From NCBI GenBank assembly GCA_026195895.1, contig JAPHRO010000011.1, forward strand, positions 1 to 64,000: DNA of 64,000 bases, written 5' to 3'. This DNA is from Gammaproteobacteria bacterium. GTDB taxonomy: Bacteria > Pseudomonadota > Gammaproteobacteria > SZUA-229. The position numbers and the translations under genes were made by a program. The notes beneath the pieces were generated by a model. The model was given only the letters and a program-made list of their open reading frames with translations. It was not told where the DNA came from and made no database searches. Positions 1 to 56,586 of this stretch are shown here, in pieces (within the stretch, counting starts at the first letter, position 1; the number at the start of each line of letters is the position of its first letter).

Positions 1-37
1 CCTCAACGGCCTTATTAAAATCAAATTGTTCAGACAT
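1..37 (-). CDS. Transposase, probable IS256 family (N-terminus only, cut by window edge)
   Basis: Reading leftward from an ATG at 37, the first 12 residues are MSEQFDFNKAVE. This resembles the conserved start of IS256-family (mutator-type) transposases, which usually continue into an LTGKDG motif outside this window. A good ribosome binding site (GAGG) lies about 10 bases upstream of the ATG. The rest of the gene is outside the window, so the DDE catalytic domain cannot be checked. The call rests on the N-terminal resemblance and on the terminal-repeat-like sequence just upstream. It would place an insertion sequence at the edge of the AT-rich accessory island. Confidence 0.5.
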   Translation of the reverse strand, partial: MSEQFDFNKAVE

Positions 38-70
38 GTATCATTCCTCTTATTTGCTATTTTATAGAAA

Positions 71-94
71 TGACACAGAATTTCTAACACTCCC
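71..94. repeat. Possible terminal inverted repeat of the IS256-type element
   Basis: Read on the minus strand, this 24-base stretch runs GGGAGTGTT then AGAAATTCTGTGTCA. The GTGTCA core about 35-60 bases ahead of the transposase start is typical of IS256-family ends. The matching right end and the target duplication lie outside the window, so the exact boundary is inferred. Confidence 0.4.
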
Positions 95-160: not shown

Positions 161-883
161 TTACAGGGAGCTATTGTTAGGAATTAGCGTATCCAGGATA
201 ATATTTTTAATTTTTTCTCTTCTGTTTATTTTGATGTATGAATGGCGTATTAAATAGTTATAAATAATGTCGACTGACTCTTTTATGCTTAATTTCGATG
301 TATCTAAAACAATTTCTGGATCATTGGGTTGCTCATAAGGGGAGTCAATGCCCGTAAATTGTTTGATTTCACCAGTTCTTGCTTTCTGATAGAGTCCTTT
401 AACATCTCTTCTTTCACATAATTCAAGCGGGCATTTTACATGTATTTCAATAAATTCAGTATCATGAACTATGCTGCGTACAAAATTTCTGTCAGATTTG
501 AATGGTGATATGAATGACGTTAGCACCATGACACCGGCATCAACGAATAATTTAGATACTTCACCAATACGTCTAATATTCTCTTTTCGGTCTGCATCGC
601 TGAAGCTAAGATCGCCACATAAACCATGACGGATATTGTCTCCATCCAGTATATATGTTCTTAAATTAATTTCATGCAGGTGTTTTTCCAGGGCATCGGC
701 TATTGTAGATTTTCCAGATCCAGATAATCCGGTAAACCACAAAATTGCTGAGCGTTGGTTATTTAACAGGTTTCTTCGTTCTTTGGTAATGATAGTGCTT
801 GTCCAGACAACATTGCTTGATCGTCTATCTACAATGTCATGTGTTCTTCTGTCCTTGGCGTTACCATGTCTTCTGTTATACAT
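161..883 (-). CDS. cysC: Adenylylsulfate (APS) kinase
   Basis: CysC phosphorylates adenosine 5'-phosphosulfate with ATP to give PAPS, the sulfuryl donor for sulfotransferases and an intermediate of sulfate assimilation. It is cytosolic. The protein has the P-loop GLSGSGKS near residues 52-59, then the family motifs LDGDNIRHGL, FSDADRKENIRR, FISPFKSDR, KGLYQKAR and FTGIDSPYE. It is a single-domain kinase of 240 residues, slightly longer than usual (about 200) because of an Arg-rich N-terminal extension. I chose the ATG at 883; the frame stays open to a TTG at 934, but that start is weaker. No ATP sulfurylase (cysN/cysD) is in the window. The gene diverges from the chrA-sulfotransferase genes and is AT-rich like them. 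Its product is the co-substrate of the sulfotransferase two genes away. Confidence 0.93.
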   Translation of the reverse strand: MYNRRHGNAKDRRTHDIVDRRSSNVVWTSTIITKERRNLLNNQRSAILWFTGLSGSGKSTIADALEKHLHEINLRTYILDGDNIRHGLCGDLSFSDADRKENIRRIGEVSKLFVDAGVMVLTSFISPFKSDRNFVRSIVHDTEFIEIHVKCPLELCERRDVKGLYQKARTGEIKQFTGIDSPYEQPNDPEIVLDTSKLSIKESVDIIYNYLIRHSYIKINRREKIKNIILDTLIPNNSSL

Positions 884-1281
884 AAAATTATCTAAACCTG
901 TATTGTTAAGTAGTAATAATATTTCTGTTAACAAAATAATATTAAAATTAATTAATAAAAAACCATTGCATATAAAAAATATAGCACTAATAGATAATTA
1001 TATTTATGGGTAATTTTCCTGAAACGACTAATAAAAGATAAAATACTATATTAGAATATTCGTCGATACATGAGGGGGTTATATGAATGTTAGCTAGGAA
1101 AAATTCCCATTTATTCGTGATTACCTTATATATTAAATTGAACCATCTATAATTAAATATAAGAGCATGTTGCAAACGTATTGTATTTGTTATTTCCATA
1201 AAAAATAGAAAGCATAAAAATAAATTGTAATAATATTGTCTATTATCGTAAAGATTATCCTTGTTTATAGAGATTGTATTG
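884..1281. other. AT-rich divergent intergenic region (cysC / chrA)
   Basis: About 400 bases separate the two divergent genes. The stretch is extremely AT-rich, with many TAATTA and TATAAT-like words, so candidate promoters for both directions are present but none can be singled out. Short open frames on both strands here have no recognisable protein character. No convincing operator or terminator was seen. Confidence 0.5.
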
Positions 1282-2496
1282 ATGTCAAGTAGTGTGGTGC
1301 TAAAAAACGCAAACAATGAGTATTCATATTGGATTCTATTTTTTACATTTTTAAAAATAGGCAGTACAGCTTTTGGTGGTTTTATGGCGCTAATTTCAGT
1401 TGTACAAAATTATGTGGTAGAAAGAAAAAAACTACTAAGTCAGGAAGAAATGTTAGACGGTGTATCCCTGGCTACTTTATTGCCGGGGCCTGTAGCCGTT
1501 AATGTCGTTGCATATGTAGGTTATAAAATACGCGGTATATGGGGTGCAGCAATATGTTTTACTGCCGTCATACTACCATCATTCTTTCTTATACTAGGCT
1601 TAAGCTATGCCTATTTCAAATGGGGTTCGTTACCTGCTGTTAATAATATTTTCAATGGTGTATTACCGGCTGTGGCCGCAATAATAACAGTGGCGGCATT
1701 TAACATGGGCCGGAAAACATTTACAGGATCGGTAGAAATACTATTCGCAGTATCAGCAATGCTTGGATTGATATTAGTAGGTGGGTTTTATAGTACCGTT
1801 ATCATTATGGCATTATCTGGATTAATAGGGCTGGTTCTATTTAAAAGAAAAGATAATCAATCATCTCATATAGATAAAAGTATTACAAAGAACTTAACTT
1901 TATTACCATCGATCAAGGTATCTTCTGCAGCAATTGTTCTAATTATAGTATTTATCGTTGCATTGTTAAAATCTAATGCATTAATAAGTGCCAAATTATT
2001 TATATCATTTTCTTCCATGAGTCTATTTCTATTTGGTGGAGGATTTGTATTTATACCGATGATTCAGGAAATAGTTGTAGATTCATATGGCTGGGTAACG
2101 CAGAAAGAGTTTATTGACGGTATTGCGCTAGGCCAGGTGACGCCGGGTCCAATTCTTATTAGCGCTACATTTATAGGGTACAAAGTGGCTGGATTGTTCG
2201 GTGCAGTAGCGGCCACTATAGGAATATTTGTTCCACCAGCAATATTGATGCTGATATGTACTCATTTTCTAGATAAATTAAAATCTTCAGAAAATATTAA
2301 AGCAATATTGAAGGGTATACGCTGTGGTGTAATTGGTATGATCGCGGCGGCTGCCTATGTGGTTTTATTGTCTGCGATGCCTGGCTATATTTCAATAATC
2401 ATATTTGTTCTATCTTTGGCAGCACTGTTAATGTTGAAGTTAGAAGTCGTATGGATAATTCCTGCGGCAGGGATAATAGGGTTTTTAATTTATTAA
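1282..2496 (+). CDS. chrA: CHR-family chromate/sulfate transporter, ChrA-like
   Basis: This is an integral membrane protein of the CHR superfamily. Known members export chromate or are linked to sulfate. The 404-residue length matches the bidomain (long-chain) type. Two homologous halves each begin with the family signature: FLKIGSTAFGG near residues 20-30, and FLFGGGFVFIP in the second half. Each half is followed by a PGP motif (LLPGPVAVN and VTPGPILIS). About ten hydrophobic segments are visible. I chose the ATG at 1282; an in-frame TTG lies 21 bases upstream at 1261, and neither has a strong ribosome binding site. The gene sits between cysC and a sulfotransferase, so sulfate or another oxyanion is as plausible a substrate as chromate. 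It is followed after 19 bases by the sulfotransferase, probably in one transcript. Confidence 0.85.
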   Translation: MSSSVVLKNANNEYSYWILFFTFLKIGSTAFGGFMALISVVQNYVVERKKLLSQEEMLDGVSLATLLPGPVAVNVVAYVGYKIRGIWGAAICFTAVILPSFFLILGLSYAYFKWGSLPAVNNIFNGVLPAVAAIITVAAFNMGRKTFTGSVEILFAVSAMLGLILVGGFYSTVIIMALSGLIGLVLFKRKDNQSSHIDKSITKNLTLLPSIKVSSAAIVLIIVFIVALLKSNALISAKLFISFSSMSLFLFGGGFVFIPMIQEIVVDSYGWVTQKEFIDGIALGQVTPGPILISATFIGYKVAGLFGAVAATIGIFVPPAILMLICTHFLDKLKSSENIKAILKGIRCGVIGMIAAAAYVVLLSAMPGYISIIIFVLSLAALLMLKLEVVWIIPAAGIIGFLIY

Positions 2497-2515
2497 ACAT
2501 TCTCGGAGGTATAGT

Positions 2516-3523
2516 ATGACACCGATTTTTATGATTGGAACACAACGATCAGGTTCTAATTTGTTGCGACTTATGATAAATCAACTGGATCATTTGGCAT
2601 CACCACATCCGCCACATATTCTTGAAAGAGTATATCCATTGTTAGACCATTATGGTGATCTTGATAAAAAAGAAAACTTTGAATTATTAGTTGATGATGT
2701 TTGTCGTTTAGTGGAGTTAAATCCAGTGGCCTGGGAAGGCGTTAGATTAGATAGACGAGATGTCATAGAAAGATGTAAAAAAAATAGTTTAGTGGCTGTT
2801 CATGGCGCTATTTATGATATTTATGCTGAACATAGAAAGGCGTTAAACTGGTGTTGCAAAAGTCTTGCAAATATTAACTATGTGAATGATATCGAAGATT
2901 ACTTTAATAAGCCGAAATACATTTATCTATATCGTGATGGTCGCGATGTTGCGTTGTCTTTTCAAAAGGCCGTTGTTGGCGAAAAACATATCTACAATAT
3001 AGCAAAAGAATGGACTGAAACTCAGGAACTGGCTATAAAGCTTCGACAATGTATCGATCCTAATCGATTCTTTAGTATTAGTTATGAAGAGCTGACAATG
3101 CAGCCTGTGGTAAGTGCTATGTCTTTATGTGAATTTCTTGATATGGAATATACAGAAAAAATGCTAAGTTTTCACGAAACCAATGAGGCGAAAAATGCAG
3201 CAGCATCCAGTAAATTATGGAGTAATGTAGCTAATCCAGTAATGAAAGGTAATTCAAAAAAGTACAAAAAAGAAATGAATTTTGTCGACATTCAGGTATT
3301 TGAATCAATAGCAGGGAATGTTTTAGATCAGTTAGGGTACGAGAGAGATTATATAAACAAAGGCGAAGAATATGAATTTACCAAGGAAGAGATAGACGAG
3401 TTTAATAATAATAATAAGCGGATGAAAATGGAGGCGCTACTTCGAGTAGATAAGGATGATCTGGAAAGAAGGCAGCGGCAGTCTAAATTATTAGATAAGA
3501 TAAAAGCAAGGAGAGCAGCATAG
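2516..3523 (+). CDS. PAPS-dependent sulfotransferase family protein
   Basis: The protein should transfer a sulfuryl group from PAPS to an unknown acceptor. The N-terminal 5'-phosphosulfate-binding loop is GTQRSGSN at residues 8-15. The 3'-phosphate-binding motif YRDGRDVALS lies near residues 139-148, followed by the conserved region FFSISYEELT. The length of 335 residues is normal for bacterial members of the Sulfotransfer_1/3 families. No signal peptide is visible, so it is likely cytosolic. A strong ribosome binding site (GGAGG) precedes the ATG. The C-terminal 60 residues are highly charged and probably helical. Together with cysC it makes a donor-plus-transferase pair, suggesting sulfation of a small molecule, lipid or polysaccharide; the acceptor cannot be read from the sequence. 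Confidence 0.87.
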   Translation: MTPIFMIGTQRSGSNLLRLMINQLDHLASPHPPHILERVYPLLDHYGDLDKKENFELLVDDVCRLVELNPVAWEGVRLDRRDVIERCKKNSLVAVHGAIYDIYAEHRKALNWCCKSLANINYVNDIEDYFNKPKYIYLYRDGRDVALSFQKAVVGEKHIYNIAKEWTETQELAIKLRQCIDPNRFFSISYEELTMQPVVSAMSLCEFLDMEYTEKMLSFHETNEAKNAAASSKLWSNVANPVMKGNSKKYKKEMNFVDIQVFESIAGNVLDQLGYERDYINKGEEYEFTKEEIDEFNNNNKRMKMEALLRVDKDDLERRQRQSKLLDKIKARRAA

Positions 3524-3579
3524 AATTCATATTTAAAGAATATTGCGTATAAGTAAATGCATTATTTGGAGTATATACA

Positions 3580-4407
3580 ATGTTAAACCATGTTCTCAGC
3601 TTAACTTCTTTATCAATAATTTTACTGGCTTATCCGGTCACGGTGTTATCTGATTATATATTTACAGCCCCGCCACGTGAGAGTATGGAGCGAGGAATAG
3701 AAATATATAAACCTATTGCAGATTATCTAACAAGAACGACGGGTGAGAAATTTACTTATAGGCATCCACAAAACTGGAGTGATTACAGTAAAGGCATGCA
3801 GAATCATGAATTCGATATGGCTTTTGATGGTCCGCATTTTGTAAGTTGGCGTATAAAAAATATCAATCATGACACTATTGCGAAATTGCCCCAATTACAT
3901 ATATGGCGAGTTATTGCACGACGTGACAATGATCAGGTTAATTCCGTGGATGATTTAGTGGGCCGTAAAGTTTGTGCGCCAAAATCACCAAATTTTGGTA
4001 TGTTAACAATGATGAGTCACTTTTCTAATCCAGATAAACAACCAGTACACATAGTAACAAAAGGATGGAAAGATGGTTTCAATGGTGTTGTATTAGAAAA
4101 ATGTGAAGCGGCCGTATTGCCAAAAACAAATCATAGGAAATTTGATCCTCAGCTGTCTGAAACAAAGGCAATTCATACCCATTTGCCATACCCTAATCAG
4201 GCATTCACTCTTGGCCCAAGAATAACACCGGACATTAAGATGAAAATACAGAAAAATTTGTTATCGGAAGATGGGCAAGTTGCGCTATCAAAATTACGAG
4301 ATAGATTTACACGAGGAGCAAAACTGGTAAGTGCAGAAAATGAGGAGTACGAAGGTATTAGTATGGTTTTAAAAAGAGCCGGTAACTTTTTAGCAGAGAA
4401 TGAGTAA
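3580..4407 (+). CDS. PhnD-like periplasmic substrate-binding protein
   Basis: This is a phosphate/phosphonate-type (PhnD/SsuA/transferrin-fold) periplasmic binding protein of 275 residues. A signal peptide occupies about the first 24 residues and ends near VLS-DYIF. Family features include the PRES..RGIEIYKPIADYL start, FDMAFDGPHFVSWR, the hinge segment VDDLVGRKVCAP and the paired segment VLEKCEAAVLP. A ribosome binding site (GGAG) lies 9 bases before the ATG. No ABC permease or ATPase follows, so it is either an orphan binding protein or the sensory partner of a two-component kinase. The latter fits the short truncated reading frame that overlaps its stop codon. The ligand is unknown; an oxyanion such as sulfate, sulfonate or phosphonate is an inference from context. 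Confidence 0.8.
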   Translation: MLNHVLSLTSLSIILLAYPVTVLSDYIFTAPPRESMERGIEIYKPIADYLTRTTGEKFTYRHPQNWSDYSKGMQNHEFDMAFDGPHFVSWRIKNINHDTIAKLPQLHIWRVIARRDNDQVNSVDDLVGRKVCAPKSPNFGMLTMMSHFSNPDKQPVHIVTKGWKDGFNGVVLEKCEAAVLPKTNHRKFDPQLSETKAIHTHLPYPNQAFTLGPRITPDIKMKIQKNLLSEDGQVALSKLRDRFTRGAKLVSAENEEYEGISMVLKRAGNFLAENE

Positions 4408-4507
4408 ATTATCATCTAAATTATGTTTCATTTATTATCCGTTAATCATTGGTCTGGTTTCCATACATAAAGGCAGGCGTGTATTGATTGGTCATTGTTG
4501 CTTTTGA
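4400..4507 (+). CDS. Short membrane ORF overlapping the binding protein; possible truncated sensor gene
   Basis: An ATG at 4400 overlaps the end of the PhnD-like gene (ATGAGTAA arrangement) and opens a 35-residue frame. It begins MSKLSSKLCFIYYPLIIGLV, a short basic start followed by a hydrophobic helix, then a basic stretch and a TGA. This is how inner-membrane sensor kinases often begin, and PhnD-like proteins are often encoded next to such kinases. It may be the remnant of a deleted downstream partner, or a chance ORF. The region up to 4587 shows nothing else. Confidence 0.3.
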   Translation: MSKLSSKLCFIYYPLIIGLVSIHKGRRVLIGHCCF

Positions 4508-4586: not shown

Positions 4587-5324
4587 TTAATTGTGGATGA
4601 AATGAATAATGGATTCAAAGTTATTCGTAGTTGAAACACATCCGCAATAATCATGGTACATCTCGGGTAAAATAATATCCTGCATATACCAATGATTTTC
4701 AGTACGGTTTTTCAAGTTTTCAATAAATCGGGCGGGTTCAGGTGGTATGCTGACACTAAATTGCCCTGGCGCAAGATGTAGCCCCTGCCCAGTGACTTTC
4801 ATATGAGCTTCTTTTCTGGTCCAGACCTGAAAAAAAGCATTTTTTTGTTGCTTTTCAGGTAAGGAAAATATGCCAGCCTGTTCGGTCGGTGTGAAAAAAC
4901 GCCTGATTAATTTAGCCCACTCATTTTTGCGGCCCATATACTCAATATCTATACCAATTGGGTGATTTTTACATACAGCAAGTATGGCCAGGTTATTTGA
5001 GTGACTAAGATTAAAACGAATATCAGGTTCATCGGCTGTGAGTAGTAGTTCTGGTTTACCTCTTTCTGAGTAGCAAAATTTAAGTTCACCGGCTGACTTG
5101 TGAAAATAAGTTGAAAGAACACTGCGCATGAATCCATGTGAGGCTATAAATCGTTTTCGATGTTTGAAAAATTTAAATTTTTCGCTGCGTTCTTTTTCTT
5201 CCTCAGAAAGATATGGATATAAGTGTTTTAATCGTGCTTGATGTATATTGAGGTAATTGAGCCAAATATGGATGGTGTTATCGTCAAGGCTCAGGTTTTC
5301 GTTTGAGGTGTGCCAGGCGTTCAC
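4587..5324 (-). CDS. 4'-phosphopantetheinyl transferase, Sfp type
   Basis: The enzyme transfers the phosphopantetheine arm of CoA to a serine of a carrier protein (ACP, PCP or ArCP). The Mg-binding motif IGIDIEYM and the W-T-R-K-E-A-x-x-K motif (WTRKEAHMK) are both intact, and the length of 245 residues is standard for the Sfp/EntD class. The start is GTG at 5324, overlapping the stop of the upstream RND permease gene in a GTGA arrangement, so translation is probably coupled. This makes it the third gene of an adaptor-RND-PPTase operon. Its carrier-protein partners (polyketide, peptide or fatty-acid-like synthases) are not in the window. Confidence 0.9.
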   Translation of the reverse strand: MNAWHTSNENLSLDDNTIHIWLNYLNIHQARLKHLYPYLSEEEKERSEKFKFFKHRKRFIASHGFMRSVLSTYFHKSAGELKFCYSERGKPELLLTADEPDIRFNLSHSNNLAILAVCKNHPIGIDIEYMGRKNEWAKLIRRFFTPTEQAGIFSLPEKQQKNAFFQVWTRKEAHMKVTGQGLHLAPGQFSVSIPPEPARFIENLKNRTENHWYMQDIILPEMYHDYCGCVSTTNNFESIIHFIHN

Positions 5325-8300
5325 GCAGCATATTCTCGATGGTAGAGTATGTAGAGTAATGGGATCAGGAATAAAGATACAAGCATAGAGAAGCTTAAAC
5401 CAAATACGATTACTGTAGCCATTGGTCGCAACATTTCTGAGCCTTCACCCAATCCGATAGCGAGTGGTAGCATGCCCATAACAGTTGTCAGAGTGGTCAT
5501 AAGAATAGGGCGTAGTCGTAATCTGGCACCTTCAACTACGGCATTGAGAATTTGTTGACCCTGTTCGCGTTGAATTTCAATTTGTTCGACTAATACAATG
5601 GCATTGTTAACGACAATGCCTGCCAGCATGATAATTCCAATTTTTGCTGGCATTGTTAATTGTTCATCGAGAAAGAACTCAGCACCTAGATATACTCCAA
5701 TCAGTGAAAATGGTACGCCAGACATAATTACGAGTGGATTTTTTAGAGATTCATACTGTACAGCCATTACGACAAATACCAGGAATAGTGCAAGTGCGAG
5801 TATAATATAACCTGCATTTTGATCTTTATTTAGATCACTCAAGGCACCCGCATCATAGATATTGTAACCTTCAGGCAATTCTAATTTTTCAATACGCTTA
5901 AAAATATTCTCCATAACCCTGGCAAGGTCAGCGTCTTCAGACAGGGTGCCACCGATTTCCACAATACGGCGTTGATTGTCTCTTTTAATATAGCTGGGTG
6001 TCGGCAGCACTTCTGTACTGGCAACCTCTCTAAGGCGTATGGTTTTTCCCTGGTTAACACTAACGATTATATTGCCTATATCGTTGGTAGACTGGGTGAT
6101 GGTTTTATTCATACGTATACGAACATCAAATTGTCGATCATCTTCAATATAGTCAGAAACAACCAGTCCATTTAAAGCAACACTGAGCGACTGACCAATG
6201 TCTTCTGTACTGACACCAAGATCGGCAGCACGTTCTCGGTTAATATTTAATACCAGCTCTTCAATCTGTTCTTCATAATTGTGCCAGACATTGGTAAGTC
6301 CGGGCACATCCTGGATTTTATCTACCACAATATCGCCGGCTTCGATGAGTGTTTTTATGTCCGAGCCCTGGATTCTTAAGCTAATATCATCATCACCCCG
6401 GCCCATGTGAACGCCACGTAAGCCCCGTACTCTAAGTCTTACTTTAAAACCAGTAAGTTTCATTTCCTTGATAGTTTTGTTCATTTTATCAACCCAGGCT
6501 TTACTGCTGATTTTTCTTTGTTGTAAAGGTTTGAGTTGCAGGTCGATAGAGCCTCGATTGGTCTGTTGAGTGCGAGACCGGCCAAATACCCAGCCACCAG
6601 AGGTTACAAAAACAGTTTCTACATCGGGCTGGTTAATAAATAGTTGTTCCAGTTGACTGAGATGTTTATCCAGTTCCTCGAGGCGAGTGCCAGGTTCACC
6701 CGTGATACCGACATTGATTTGGCCTTCATCCATAGTAGGAAACATGGGTTGTTTAGAATTGTAAAGTTGGAAAGCGCTATAAAATAGTAATGGAAACAGT
6801 AGTACAAATAGCCAGTAGAATTTATTGATACTGGTTTTTAGGAGATTACCATACGCGTTCTGAAGCTGATTGAATAATTTGTCAAAAGCACGAATATTGG
6901 TATCGGAAATACTGTTGACGGCACCTGCTTTTGCTCCCAGTGCCGGGATCAATGTGAGCGCTACTAGCAATGAGGCAACAATTGCCGCGGATAGAGTGAT
7001 AATCAGTTCGCTAAACAACAGCCCGACCAGTCCGCCAATAAATAGAAAAGGTAGAACAGCAACCAGATTGGTTGTTGTTGATGCGGTAATAGCGCTGGTT
7101 ATTTCAGCGGCAGCATCTACGGCGGATTCTTCCTTGCTGGATGTTAATTTCTGGTGGCGAGAAATATTTTCCAGCATAACAATGGTGTTATCTACTAACA
7201 GGCCAATGCCAAGTGCAAGTCCGCCCAGTGACATAATATTAAGTGTCAGGCCGGTGACGCCCATAATGGAAAAGGTGACTAATATAGCGAGGGGAATGGC
7301 AGTTGATATGATTAATGTGCGCCGGATATTGCCAATAAAAATATAGACGATCAGCATAGCGAGTAAGGCGCCAGACAAAGCAGCAATAGAGGCATTACGC
7401 AGGGCGTGACGCACATAGGTCGATCCATCCGCAACTTTTTCAACATTTATACTTTCGGGTAATAAATTTTGCTGTTTAAACCAATCAAGTTTTTTCAGTA
7501 CCGCATCAACCACCGCAACGGTATTGGCGGTAGGTTGTTTTTGAATAGATAACTTAATGCCGGGCGTACCATTCAAACGAATACGTAATTCTTCATCACC
7601 ATGAGTATCAAGTATTTTGGCTACATCACCCAGGCGAATAGCATCATCAACTGTTTGTGAATCGGCTGAGGTAAGTGGTAGTCGCGCCAACTCTTTGATG
7701 TTGGTAAATCGCCCCCTGGTGCGTGTGCTGAGCTGGCGGTTCTGCATATACAAAGTGCCACTGGCTATATCCAGATTTTCTTTTTTAAGAATTTCAATGA
7801 CATCATTAAACTCAAAACCAGCCGCTGCCAGTTTCTCCTGATCGACAATGATCTGTATTTCGCGAACCAGCCCACCGCCAATTTCAGCGGCGGCCACGCC
7901 TTCGATGGTTAAAAACCATTTGGAAAATTCATAATCGACCCAGCTACGTAATTCCACCGGATCGAGCTGATCGGAGCTGACACTGAGTTCCAGTACCGGT
8001 ATTTGCGAAGGGTCTCGTTTATATATAATTGGAGGTTCAATCGTGTCAGGCAGAAAACGTTTTGCTCTGTCCAGACGTGTGCTGGCGTCGCGCAGTGCAA
8101 CATCAATATCTGTGCCATAGGGAAAACTTAAACTAACCTGGCTACGACCTTCCGAACTATCCGATTGCACAACAATGGCATCTTCGGTTATGGCTAGCTG
8201 TTCTTCAAGTTGTCGTGTTATTTGATCTTCCATGATACGTGCGGGAACGCCCGGATCTAAAACGCGTACCCGGATATCCGGGTAAATCAGTTTAGGTAAT

Positions 8301-8428
8301 AGGTCGATATTTAAGCGGTCGAAAGAAAAAATACCCAGTACGGCTATTGCCAGGGCCAACATGCTCACGGCTATCGGTCGATGAATTGACCAGGCTGCCA
8401 GACCTCCGGTTCGAAAGCGTCTTTTCAT
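5321..8428 (-). CDS. RND efflux permease (AcrB/CzcA superfamily)
   Basis: This is a proton-driven inner-membrane pump of 1035 residues, standard for the family. A first membrane helix lies at about residues 12-30, followed by a large periplasmic loop, helices 2-6 near 345-490, a second periplasmic loop, and five helices near 860-1020. The fourth helix carries LLVDNTIVMLEN near residue 410. The second residue of the usual Asp pair is Asn, which is common in several RND subfamilies. The gene overlaps the adaptor gene upstream and the phosphopantetheinyl transferase downstream by four bases each. No outer-membrane factor is in this operon; the TolC-family gene at 12302 could serve it. Substrate unknown; it looks more HAE-like than metal-specific. 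Confidence 0.93.
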   Translation of the reverse strand: MKRRFRTGGLAAWSIHRPIAVSMLALAIAVLGIFSFDRLNIDLLPKLIYPDIRVRVLDPGVPARIMEDQITRQLEEQLAITEDAIVVQSDSSEGRSQVSLSFPYGTDIDVALRDASTRLDRAKRFLPDTIEPPIIYKRDPSQIPVLELSVSSDQLDPVELRSWVDYEFSKWFLTIEGVAAAEIGGGLVREIQIIVDQEKLAAAGFEFNDVIEILKKENLDIASGTLYMQNRQLSTRTRGRFTNIKELARLPLTSADSQTVDDAIRLGDVAKILDTHGDEELRIRLNGTPGIKLSIQKQPTANTVAVVDAVLKKLDWFKQQNLLPESINVEKVADGSTYVRHALRNASIAALSGALLAMLIVYIFIGNIRRTLIISTAIPLAILVTFSIMGVTGLTLNIMSLGGLALGIGLLVDNTIVMLENISRHQKLTSSKEESAVDAAAEITSAITASTTTNLVAVLPFLFIGGLVGLLFSELIITLSAAIVASLLVALTLIPALGAKAGAVNSISDTNIRAFDKLFNQLQNAYGNLLKTSINKFYWLFVLLFPLLFYSAFQLYNSKQPMFPTMDEGQINVGITGEPGTRLEELDKHLSQLEQLFINQPDVETVFVTSGGWVFGRSRTQQTNRGSIDLQLKPLQQRKISSKAWVDKMNKTIKEMKLTGFKVRLRVRGLRGVHMGRGDDDISLRIQGSDIKTLIEAGDIVVDKIQDVPGLTNVWHNYEEQIEELVLNINRERAADLGVSTEDIGQSLSVALNGLVVSDYIEDDRQFDVRIRMNKTITQSTNDIGNIIVSVNQGKTIRLREVASTEVLPTPSYIKRDNQRRIVEIGGTLSEDADLARVMENIFKRIEKLELPEGYNIYDAGALSDLNKDQNAGYIILALALFLVFVVMAVQYESLKNPLVIMSGVPFSLIGVYLGAEFFLDEQLTMPAKIGIIMLAGIVVNNAIVLVEQIEIQREQGQQILNAVVEGARLRLRPILMTTLTTVMGMLPLAIGLGEGSEMLRPMATVIVFGLSFSMLVSLFLIPLLYILYHREYAA

Positions 8429-9495
8429 TTATTCGTCACGTCTTTTATTTTGATGACCATATCGTTTTTGAGACCAAAGAAACCTTTGACGACGACGATA
8501 TCGTTTTCTTTCAGGCCTTCCAGTACTTCTATCTCATTACGATTCTCAAGGCCGGTATGAATAGCCTGCTGAACGGCCCTGTTGTTTTCTACTACATAAA
8601 CATAAGCGCCCTGGATGTTGTGGCGCACCGCATCAAATGGAATCATCAGTCGATTCCTGTTTTGTGTTTTTAATGTGATTCGACATAGTTGACCGGGTAA
8701 AGCGCCCGGGGGCACTGGATCCAGCTTAATTTCAATGGTACCGCTTCTGGTTATGGTGTCGATGGTTGGATGCAGTCGGGTTATACGGCCCCGGTATGGT
8801 TTATTGTTTTCACTGTCAGATGCTTCAGCAAGGGCATCAATTTTTATGGCAACTTCATCGCCGAGTTGAATCAACGGCAACAATAATTCTGACACATGCA
8901 CCCTGGCTTTCAGGCTTGAGGTATCAATCAGTGTCAACAGGTGGCTATGAATGGGTATAACGTCTCCCGGTTCGGCCAGTCGTTCACTAATAGTGCCGTT
9001 CAATGGCGCATAAATCTGAGTGCGGGTAAATCGCGCCTGATTTTGATTCAGTTCCGCCTGGGCTATATCAACTGCCGTTTGTGCTTTGGCAACTTCATCA
9101 TCGGATGCCAGTTTGCGAGGAACAAGGTCTTTTAAACGTTTCAAATCTAGCTGGTACTGTTTTAATGAAGCGCGGGCCTTATTAAAATCGGCTTTAATCA
9201 GGGCGTCGTCCAGCTTGGCCAGTAGATCACCTTTTTTTACAATGTCGCCTTCATAGTGTGGCAGGCGAATGAGCAGGCCTTCTTCCTGGTTAAAGATTTT
9301 TATACTGCGGACGGTTTCCAGCGTTCCTGGCAGGGTTTTACTGATACTTACCGGTTTGATTCGGGCGATGCCTGTTTCGACTAAATGCGGGTCTTTGGGG
9401 CGTTTTTTGGGTTTGGATTGATCTTCCGTGCAGGCCAGTAGCGACAATACTGCAGCAAGCAGAAACAATACCTTTATAGAGTTAGGGAAAATCAT
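8425..9495 (-). CDS. RND periplasmic adaptor (membrane fusion protein), lipoprotein
   Basis: This 356-residue periplasmic adaptor links the RND pump to an outer-membrane channel. A lipoprotein signal ends in LLAC with the acylated Cys at residue 22. The HlyD-like order is visible: a barrel-sandwich segment (EEGLLIRLPHYEGDIVKKGDLLAKLD), an alpha-hairpin from about residue 110 to 160, a return lipoyl half (YAPLNGTISERLAEPGD) and a beta-barrel. The stop overlaps the permease start (ATGA), so the two are translationally coupled. The 155-base gap to the divergent ABC exporter gene at 9651 must hold both promoters. Confidence 0.92.
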   Translation of the reverse strand: MIFPNSIKVLFLLAAVLSLLACTEDQSKPKKRPKDPHLVETGIARIKPVSISKTLPGTLETVRSIKIFNQEEGLLIRLPHYEGDIVKKGDLLAKLDDALIKADFNKARASLKQYQLDLKRLKDLVPRKLASDDEVAKAQTAVDIAQAELNQNQARFTRTQIYAPLNGTISERLAEPGDVIPIHSHLLTLIDTSSLKARVHVSELLLPLIQLGDEVAIKIDALAEASDSENNKPYRGRITRLHPTIDTITRSGTIEIKLDPVPPGALPGQLCRITLKTQNRNRLMIPFDAVRHNIQGAYVYVVENNRAVQQAIHTGLENRNEIEVLEGLKENDIVVVKGFFGLKNDMVIKIKDVTNK

Positions 9496-43531: not shown

Positions 43532-44379
43532 AGCAGAAAAAAACATTCTGGGCGATTGTTCCCGCTGCGGGTGTCGGCAAGCGCATGGTCGCGGACAGGC
43601 CCAAGCAATATCTGGAATTACATCATCGCACTGTCATTGAGCATAGCCTGCAACGGCTACTGGATGTACCGGCCATATCGGGCGCGATTGTCTCACTAGA
43701 TGTTCATGATCAATACTGGCCCGAGCTAAAATTTAGTCATGAGAAATCGGTGGTTACTGTTGCTGGTGGGGCTGAGAGATACGATTCTGTATTGAATGCC
43801 CTCAACAAGTTAAAAGAGATAATTAAAGTAGATTCTAATGATGAGGTCTGGGTGCTGGTGCACGATGCTGCCAGACCCTGTGTGCGAGCTGAAGACCTGA
43901 TACACCTGATCGAGGTTGCCAGTCATGACGACCATGGCGGCCTGCTGGCATTGCCAGTCAGGGATACCATGAAAAGAACGCAGGAAGCGTTGTTTCGCGG
44001 CAGCCCCGAAGGGGAGAGTCTCAGGGATGAGACGAACAAAAGAGCGTCAGGAACGCTGTTTCGCGGCAGCCCCGAAGGGGAGAGTCTCAGGGATGAGACG
44101 AACAAAAGGCAGCATCAAAATAACCGAGTGCAAACGACCGTGGACCGAACCGGTTTGTGGCATGCCTTAACGCCACAGATGTTTAAACTGGATCTGCTGA
44201 TCAATGCCCTCCAGCAGGCACAGCAAAAAGGCTTGCAGGTGACGGATGATGCATCGGCGATGGAGCTGGCGGGTTATCATCCGTTACTGGTAGAGGGGCA
44301 TGAAGACAATATCAAAATTACCCGGCCGTTTGATTTGCAGTTGGCCAGTCTTTATATAAAGGAATTCGATCATGACTGA
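43528..44379 (+). CDS. ispD: 2-C-methyl-D-erythritol 4-phosphate cytidylyltransferase with a repeat insertion
   Basis: IspD couples CTP to MEP in the non-mevalonate isoprenoid pathway. The CTP-binding start [37 protein letters not shown] and [16 protein letters not shown] are all intact. The protein is 283 residues, about 45 more than usual. The excess lies between MKR (residue 150) and TVDR (residue 204), where E. coli has about ten residues. It is made of two copies of an 18-residue peptide beginning [10 protein letters not shown] at residues 155 and 177. This region is the beta-arm used for dimer contact in IspD structures, so function may be tolerated. The gene overlaps ftsB and ispF. Confidence 0.95.
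43991..44108 (+). repeat. Tandem palindromic repeat inside ispD (2 x 52 bp, 66-bp period)
   Basis: Two identical 52-base copies lie at 43991-44042 and 44057-44108, separated by 14 bases. Each contains two hairpins: CCCC-GAA-GGGG, and GTCTCA-GGGA-TGAGAC with a perfect 6-base stem. The 66-base period keeps the reading frame. Imperfect similarity extends upstream (CAGGAA at 43981 and 44048), which suggests duplication of a slightly larger unit. No other copy was noticed in the window. Confidence 0.93.
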
Positions 44380-54255: not shown

Positions 54256-56586
54256 ATGACGGATCGATTACAAACACGGAATAGTTTGCCAATCTATGCG
54301 CTGGTATTTCTGGGCGGCATTGGTTCATTGCAATTTTTTAGCAGGCTGCCAGATCCCTACTGGCTGGGCTTGCTGCCGCTGGTTTTTCTGCTGGTTTTTT
54401 TTAAACCGAGATTAAGATTGCTCTGCCTTGGGCTTGCGGGATTTCTCTGGGCTTTGCTTCATGCACACTGGTATTTTTTACATGTTTTACCGGAAGCGCT
54501 GGCCGGTCAGGATGTCTGGATTGAAGGTGTTATCGCTGATATTCCGACCAAAGCCGATCGAGTGCAGCGCTAAGAAATCGGTGTTAAACGATTTCAGCCG
54601 GTCGAACCGCAATCAGCGGCAGCGAATGAGGAAAACTATCATCCCAGATATTTACGGATCAGTTGGTACGATAATACGCAGCAAATAAGGGCCGGTGAAC
54701 ACTGGCGTTTGAAAGTGCGCTTAAAACCCCCCCATGGCTTTAGAAATACCGGTGGTTTTGACTACGAAATGTGGCTGTACCAGCAAGGCATTCACGCCAC
54801 CGGCTATGTACGAAAAGACGCGTCCAATCAACGGCTGGCATTAGCCGATCCCTGTTCGCTGGGCGGGATTCGACAGCAGCTGGCAGATCGTATTTTGCAG
54901 CTTGAAACGCTGGAGTTTGGCGGCCTGATCGCCGCGCTTGCGGTGGGCTACAAAGATGCGATTCAGCCTGAGCACTGGCGGTTGCTAATGCGCACCGGCA
55001 CGAATCATTTGATGGCTATATCTGGGTTACATATTGGACTGGTGGCCGCCATGGGTTTCTGGCTGGTCAGGTGGTTGCTGCCCGTAAGCATAATTCAGCG
55101 AGTACCGGCCAACCAGTTAGCCGCCTGTGTTTCGCTGTTGCTGGCTTTTGCTTACGCTCTGTTAGCAGGTTTTGCGATTCCTACCCAGCGCGCCATGCTG
55201 ATGTTGATGGTGGTGCTGGGTGCTGTCCTGTTCAGACGCCATATTCGGCCGCTAAATGGCCTGTCGCTGGCGTTAATTGTCGTATTGCTGATTGATCCAG
55301 TAGCGGTTTTATCGGCCGGTTTCTGGTTTTCATTTCTCGCGGTCGGTGTACTTGCCTACAGTTTCAGTGGTCGGCTGAGCCGACCCGGCAGGTTGTGGCA
55401 GTGGGGGCGAGTGCAGTGGGTGATCGCGCTGGCGTTATTTCCCGTTTCCCTGTTCATGTTCCAGCAGGCATCGCTGGTGGCGCCGCTGGTTAATGTAGTG
55501 CTGGTGCCCTGGGTCAGTTTCCTGATAGTGCCGTTGGTGTTGTTGGTCCTGTGCGTTATCTGGCCATTTCCAGTATTGGCAGATGGGCTGCTGACGCTGG
55601 CGGATTTCCTGTTGTCGCTAGCCTGGCCCCTGGTGAATTATCTGGGTGTATCGCCGCTTAGCAGTTGGCAGCAGGCATCTCCACCGCTGATTTATCTGTT
55701 GCTGGCGATGGTGGGGATGGCATTGTTGCTGGCACCGAAAGGATTCCCGCAGCGCTGGTCAGGTCTGCTCATGTTGCTGCCCGCGTTGCTCAATGAGCCA
55801 GCAAAACCGGCCCCAGGGGATTTCTGGATGAGCTTACTGGATGTGGGGCAGGGTCTTGCGGTGTTTATTCAGACACACGATCACAGCCTGGTGTTTGATA
55901 CCGGCGCCAAATTCAGTGACCGATTCAATGCCGGAGACCGGGTACTGGTGCCCTATCTGAAAAATCGGGGTATTTCATCCCTGGATACTCTGCTTGTTAG
56001 CCACGGTGACAACGACCATGTGGGTGGTGCCGCGTCGTTGATTCAGCAGGTCCCGGTCAGGCAGCTTCTGGGGCAGGATATCGACAGCCTGGATCATGAC
56101 AATAAGCAGGCCTGTCGGCAGGGCCAGCACTGGCAATGGGATGGCGTGGATTTTCAGATACTGCATCCGGACAGACCCTATAAACAGCGCAATAATCGAG
56201 GTTGTGTTCTGCTGGTGAGTAGCGGAACCGGACGGCTGTTGCTGGCGGCAGATATCGAACGCAAGGTAGAGTCTCGCCTGGTGAAGGAATATGGCCGGCA
56301 GCTCAAGTCGGATGTACTTGTCGTACCCCATCATGGCAGTGAAACTTCATCGAGCAGCGCCTGGATTCGTACGGTGAATCCCGACTATGCACTGGTATCC
56401 GTGGGCTATAAAAATCGCTTTAATCATCCGCGCCCAGCGATAGTCAATGCCTATGAAAATATTGATGCCCAACTGCTGTCCACAGCCGACCTGGGGGCGA
56501 TAAATATCAAATTTTCCAGAACCACAGGCATAAGCGTCAGCAGTGTGCGGCAACAACAGCAGCATTATTGGAATCATTTACCCTGA
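54256..56586 (+). pseudogene. comEC: comEC/rec2 DNA-uptake channel gene interrupted by one in-frame TAA
   Basis: ComEC forms the inner-membrane channel for transforming DNA. From ATG at 54256 the frame reads N-terminal membrane helices and the start of the OB-like domain, meets TAA at 54571-54573, and continues in the same frame to 56586. It goes on through the rest of the OB domain (HGFRNTGGFDYE), the competence domain with many helices (GTNHLMAISGLHIGL) and the metallo-beta-lactamase-like domain (SHGDNDHVGG, VPHHGSETSS). Without the stop the protein would be about 776 residues, the normal size. An internal TTG at 54709 could start a 625-residue C-terminal piece. Either the gene is newly inactivated or the stop is a sequence error. 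Confidence 0.9.

Follow-up and report, generated by a model that had tools for sequence, protein, structure and literature searches.

Why should genes for an adenosine 5'-phosphosulfate (APS) kinase, a transporter named for chromate, a sulfotransferase (ST) and a PhnD-like binding protein stand together beside an insertion sequence (IS) in a gammaproteobacterial genome? The window analysed here, 64,000 nucleotides of Gammaproteobacteria bacterium GCA_026195895.1 (JAPHRO010000011.1), starts at base 1 of this contig (C25; 70,281 bp), which belongs to a draft genome of 3.33 Mb and 99% completeness. The four genes, hereafter the cassette, are supported as a functional unit and belong to a conserved module, present in at least four bacterial groups, in which an ST is joined by a transporter of the "chromate" type and, in many lineages, by a periplasmic sensor; before the IS inserted, the four genes were contiguous with a Chp-like chemosensory operon. 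The cassette comprises:

161-934, minus strand: cysC, APS kinase for the synthesis of 3'-phosphoadenosine 5'-phosphosulfate (PAPS) (Pfam APS_kinase, 229.6 bits, 2.1e-68); the true start is probably near 883, slightly inside the listed open reading frame (ORF)
1282-2496, plus strand: chrA-like transporter of the CHR superfamily, cassette-type CHR (Pfam Chromate_transp, 289 bits, 1.4e-86; TIGR00937); the likely start is the ATG at 1282, inside the listed ORF (1261-2496), as the alignment suggests
2516-3523, plus strand: PAPS-dependent ST of the HPPH-motif ortholog group (Pfam Sulfotransfer_3, 95 bits)
3580-4407, plus strand: PhnD-like periplasmic binding protein, probable sensor (Pfam Phosphonate-bd, 68 bits, 1e-18)

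All four genes scored above the Pfam cut-offs, and their coordinates bear out the arrangement in the original prediction, which was made from the sequence alone: cysC on one strand and the chrA-ST-phnD-like row on the other. It had also described these genes as more AT-rich than those from 5 kb onward, and the G+C content at third codon positions (GC3) agrees: 0.28-0.29 in the four cassette genes against 0.458 +/- 0.056 (standard deviation; minimum 0.36) in the 41 window genes past 5.4 kb, with intermediate values in the 4'-phosphopantetheinyl transferase and RND permease genes to the right of the cassette.

Conservation of the cassette

Five other genomes of the same family carry the ST at 61-67% identity and keep the same order, cysC / chrA-ST-phnD, wherever the contig is long enough; the cysC orthologs are 61-65% identical and likewise divergently placed. 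A single-sequence scan of the contig collection gave no matches; an alignment-based scan of the same collection gave 21 loci, spread over Gammaproteobacteria, Gallionellales/Nitrosomonadales, Muproteobacteria, Nitrospirota and Bacteroidota, and wider samples added more. For the counts that follow, 39 ST ortholog loci and 12 paralog loci were compared by BLAST with reference sequences of the cassette, and representatives were checked against Pfam; genes in related loci were called from ORFs and BLAST matches, with Pfam applied to a selection. The orthologs span 39-67% identity to the window ST. chrA adjoins the ST in 35 of the 39 ortholog loci versus none of the 12 paralog loci, the paralogs lying in glycan clusters, and chrA-ST pairs were found in Gammaproteobacteria, Gallionellales, the Nitrospirota search, Bacteroidota and conjugative plasmids of Serratia. 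The four orthologs that have no chrA neighbour are three Bacteroidota-side STs (L054, L146 and L149; 43-46% identity), possibly an ancestral or reduced form, and a distant ST from the Nitrospirota search (L099; 39% identity). At three loci (L040:5837-7015, L047:6214-7422 and L049:5839-7017) a second, divergent ST, 27-29% identical to the window ST, is encoded a few kb or less from the cassette, and PhnD-like genes are close by.

The cassette-type CHR protein and the ST ortholog occur in an identical set of six among 369 gammaproteobacterial genomes (G000, G015, G135, G230, G284 and G291, from five families), so that the co-occurrence on which the original prediction had staked itself was found, together with the adjacency. 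The separation is wide: ST orthologs score at least 426 bits, the next best sequence 154, and cassette-type CHR proteins at least 400 bits to their profile, all others at most 195. If the genomes were independent, identical sets would have a chance of about 3e-13 (hand calculation); they are not, and the value is a guide only. Pairwise distances of ST and CHR over 33 loci correlate at r=0.93, a value that 0 of 10,000 permutations reached and to which shared species history contributes; the two genes are co-inherited. The window CHR protein resembles the long-chain type of the superfamily (PMC5699817) in its two Chromate_transp domains and in scoring above the cut-off of TIGR00937 (Pfam, NCBIfam), but the cassette type forms a separate group, which in the sampled Gammaproteobacteria is present only alongside the ST, and no chrB or chrF neighbours were seen.

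PAPS-synthesis genes and CysQ also recur near the cassette, and the partners vary by lineage. In Nitrospirota and Gallionellales a Sat-CysC fusion (PUA_2, ATP-sulfurylase and APS_kinase domains) replaces CysC and CysQ-type phosphatase genes are present too. Some Nitrospirota have chrA-ST-phnD followed by genes for a methyl-accepting chemotaxis protein (MCP) and CheA. Chromatium and two genomes that came from searching the phylum Nitrospirota have the order ST, chrA, a fusion of PhnD with a histidine kinase, and a response regulator/SpoIIE protein. In four Bacteroidota genomes chrA-ST has an arylsulfotransferase-family gene before or after it, and no PAPS-synthesis homolog was detected near these loci; of the other cassette-bearing genomes that were checked, a single one has an arylsulfotransferase partner, so that a relay through this enzyme is not general. 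Two Serratia isolates from river water (sp. JSRIV002 and JSRIV004) carry sat-cysC, tauE, ST, cysQ and chrA on MOBF conjugative plasmids (in pJSRIV004_1 at L163:11988-18029, adjoined by a chaperone-usher fimbrial operon). The mobility of this minimal set as one unit suggests that PAPS synthesis, sulfuryl transfer, removal of 3'-phosphoadenosine 5'-phosphate and the CHR protein belong together, and its compact five-gene form is suited to bench work.

The cassette was found only in the seed genome when the order of Sideroxyarcus was sampled, and is hence rare there; a search of phages gave none, and in E. coli only the chromosomal cysQ was among the matches listed. A selenoprotein in two of the Nitrospirota-search matches was ruled out, because the in-frame TGA is the terminal stop. 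The literature on STs with CHR proteins, CysQ/chrA, PilJ or a chemosensory context yielded no description of the system (most subscription journals lay outside the coverage); the module is apparently undescribed, as had been supposed from the start.

A chemosensory operon across the insertion sequence

The left edge of the window shows where the rest of the locus lies:

1-94, minus strand: right end of an insertion sequence, which we take to be of the IS256 family, with the terminal inverted repeat ending at 94 (copies in the genome; inverted repeat on contig C33)
37-1, minus strand: start of the transposase, MSEQFDFNKAVE..., with its start codon at 37-35
95-102: GTTTTATC, an 8-bp target-site duplication with its identical copy at the end of contig C33 (L065:15905-15912)

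The IS that had been suspected at this border is real, with six exact copies of its bases 1-92 in the genome, and since the window begins at contig base 1 with the IS end, the assembly evidently broke here. Contig C33 (26,009 bp) terminates in the opposite inverted repeat of the same IS, and the exact 8-bp GTTTTATC stands directly outside the IS on both contigs, which places C33 and C25 in contiguity before the insertion. The shared inverted repeats, the duplication and synteny in relatives put C33, the IS and C25 in one line.

The original prediction suggested that the IS might have cut off ATP sulfurylase or acceptor-synthesis genes to the left; instead, a chemosensory operon was found there. 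It follows the order pilG-pilH-pilI-pilJ-chpA (L065 4322-12130), with PilG-like and PilH-like receivers, CheW, an MCP and a CheA-receiver hybrid of 1189 aa, and also carries two CheW-like genes, a HisKA_3 kinase and a LuxR-type response regulator. GC3 is 0.19-0.34 in the operon and above 0.42 in the genes to its left, and because such edges stand at both ends of the combined locus, the AT-rich unit is the operon plus the cassette. Chemosensory genes were likewise found on the cysC side in four genomes of the family (G009, G015, G023 and G028). The operon resembles Pil-Chp systems in its succession of two receivers, CheW, MCP and CheA with a C-terminal receiver, and differs from them in the additional CheW-like, HisKA_3 and LuxR-type genes and in its shorter CheA; a second, canonical pil-chp operon on contig C54 of the same genome (G000:C54:12319-22141, L154) encodes a ChpA-like protein of 1930 aa with four Hpt stretches, so that the genome has two Chp-type systems. 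We call the C33 operon Chp-like for its gene order, and a role in pilus control is putative. An ATP sulfurylase fused to APS kinase is encoded elsewhere, on contig C28, near an ST paralog and in what seems to be an exopolysaccharide cluster distinct from the cassette.

Proposed roles in sulfation, transport and sensing

The ST contains GTQRSGSNLL and YRDGRDVA, which correspond to the 5'-phosphosulfate-binding and 3'-phosphate-binding (RDxRD-type) motifs, and PHPPH, R11, K115, R140 and R143 are invariant in a 32-sequence alignment. Its AlphaFold2 model (pLDDT, the model confidence score, 92.7) is nearest to the folds of the CurM ST and tyrosylprotein ST; CurM/olefin-synthase and tyrosylprotein STs are its closest relatives of solved structure in fold and sequence, yet only about 18-20% identical. 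The acidic GEETR catalytic segment of tyrosylprotein ST is aligned with the invariant PHPPH, and because of this replacement H31 or H34 is a candidate for the catalytic base. PAPS-dependent sulfation is the obvious chemistry, in line with the original prediction, and to the extent that sequence can establish it, it is secure.

The model of the PhnD-like protein (pLDDT 83.9) is nearest to PtxB, HtxB, ArrX and AioX. Among the window ORFs and the listed family loci, no ATPase or permease gene of a phosphonate ABC transporter (PhnC/PhnE) was found beside it. Homologs are fused to a histidine kinase in three loci (L052, L097 and L098), while in others the gene stands directly after a CheA-like gene (L156; likewise in G291, with the same place in G230) or before MCP-CheA (L041, L043), and from these contexts the PhnD-like proteins are probably sensors, as anticipated. 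ArrX and AioX serve in the signalling of arsenic oxyanions (PMC5908839), and sensors of tetrathionate and thiosulfate were discovered by way of PhnD-like sensor domains (PMC5408782). The window protein is like AioX/ArxX/ArrX (PMC5908839) and TtrS and the thiosulfate sensor (PMC5408782) in that a PhnD-like protein or domain would feed a signalling protein; it differs in its link to ST and CHR, to which a chemoreceptor/CheA array is often added. ArrX and AioX are among its nearest solved folds, and the sequence identity is only about 14%.

For the reaction, the size of the acceptor, the direction of transport, the ligand of the PhnD-like protein and its coupling to the receptor, we infer the following chain. 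CysC, or elsewhere the Sat-CysC fusion, would provide PAPS, from which the HPPH-type ST would transfer the sulfuryl group to a small cytosolic acceptor; the CHR protein would export the sulfated anion through the inner membrane, and the PhnD-like protein might bind this anion or a related sulfur oxyanion in the periplasm and thereby act on the Chp-like chemoreceptor/CheA array, as well as on the histidine kinase and LuxR-type response regulator encoded across the IS. In this reading, which is the best explanation we can offer and has a probability of roughly 0.4, the locus serves both chemosensing and sulfation, and the four genes are its sulfation half. A full signalling circuit, in which the exported compound is a sulfated small molecule read back into the Chp-like array by the PhnD-like sensor and the whole CHR clade consists of organic-sulfate exporters, seems to us rather doubtful.

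Surface glycans, Nod factors and RaxX account for most of what is otherwise known of PAPS-dependent sulfation in bacteria, and the present locus ties such sulfation to chemosensory signalling. The Rax system of Xanthomonas also has PAPS genes and two-component control. Its gene cluster (raxX-raxSTAB, PMC6637879, with raxP/raxQ) brings together an ST, a signal that becomes sulfated and a route for secreting it, as the window locus would do too, but the window locus has a CHR transporter, a periplasmic PhnD-like sensor and a chemosensory array. No ABC or type I exporter recurs as a cassette neighbour in the listed loci, and no peptide precursor was seen at the cassette, short precursor peptides not having been searched for systematically.

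Competing readings and neighbouring features

The direction of transport divides the proposed mechanism from the reading in which the CHR protein imports sulfate or another oxyanion for dedicated PAPS synthesis, the acceptor of the ST lies at the surface or outside the cell, and external sulfate is what the PhnD-like protein detects. CHR substrates resemble sulfate, CHR accompanies Sat-CysC or CysC, and CysQ, and PhnD-like proteins bind oxyanions (PMC5908839), all of which would suit import. However, 21 of the 22 cassette-bearing genomes have SulP-type transporter genes and characterised CHR proteins are efflux pumps (PMC5699817), so that the product is no less likely to be exported than sulfate is to be imported, and we place export first; moreover, the Bacteroidota keep chrA with ST and arylsulfotransferase at loci near which no PAPS-synthesis homolog was detected. 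Import is on balance unlikely. Arylsulfotransferases take aryl sulfates as donors. They are PAPS-independent (PMC10932419), and export of a small sulfated donor would fit the Bacteroidota arrangement.

The Chp-like operon, the fimbrial operon beside the Serratia plasmid cassette and the ST paralogs in glycan clusters could instead mean that the substrate of the ST is a structure at the cell surface (pilin, adhesin, exopolysaccharide or lipid), that the chemosensory system controls attachment or twitching and that CHR only balances sulfate or other anions; yet the ortholog group, unlike the paralogs, is accompanied by no glycosyltransferase, pilin or polymer gene, and the genome has its separate pil-chp operon, which makes this quite unlikely. 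Improbable, too, is a detoxification route, in which phenolic or similar toxic compounds are sulfated and exported under induction by the sensor: a cytosolic PAPS-dependent ST with a transporter, the accessory placement on conjugative plasmids and the patchy distribution would agree with it, but it would be unusual for a gene pair for detoxification to be regulated by an entire chemosensory array, and no catabolic or efflux neighbours recur. Chance neighbourhood in an AT-rich region with an adjacent IS is refuted, to the point of near-zero probability, by the order kept in independent genomes and the reciprocal co-occurrence.

Several points weigh against the chain that ends in export and sensing. 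We know of no CHR protein that carries an organic sulfate, and SulP transporters elsewhere in the genome are compatible with a dedicated sulfate-import role for CHR. The ligand of the PhnD-like protein could be sulfate or thiosulfate instead of the ST product, and the Bacteroidota and Serratia versions lack the gene for this protein; sensing is thus not universal and would be an added layer rather than part of the core. Most genomes are metagenome-assembled, and several loci are truncated by contig ends. Chromate gave the widespread CHR proteins their name, though it is unlikely to be what most of them transport in nature, and the genomic context of the cassette argues for a substrate other than chromate. 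A CHR clade exclusive, in the sampled Gammaproteobacteria, to one ST offers a concrete, testable natural role, and such "chromate" transporters may handle a sulfated molecule.

To the right of the cassette, the 4'-phosphopantetheinyl transferase gene is directly followed by genes for the RND permease and an adaptor (4587-9495, minus strand), along which GC3 climbs stepwise from 0.35 to 0.46. Farther along the window, a 66-bp tandem repeat of about two copies (94% matching) lies at 43972-44108, and an ORF for a ComEC/Rec2-like membrane protein (named by eye) at 54709-56586 coincides with an odd AT skew (-0.33) at 55-56 kb.

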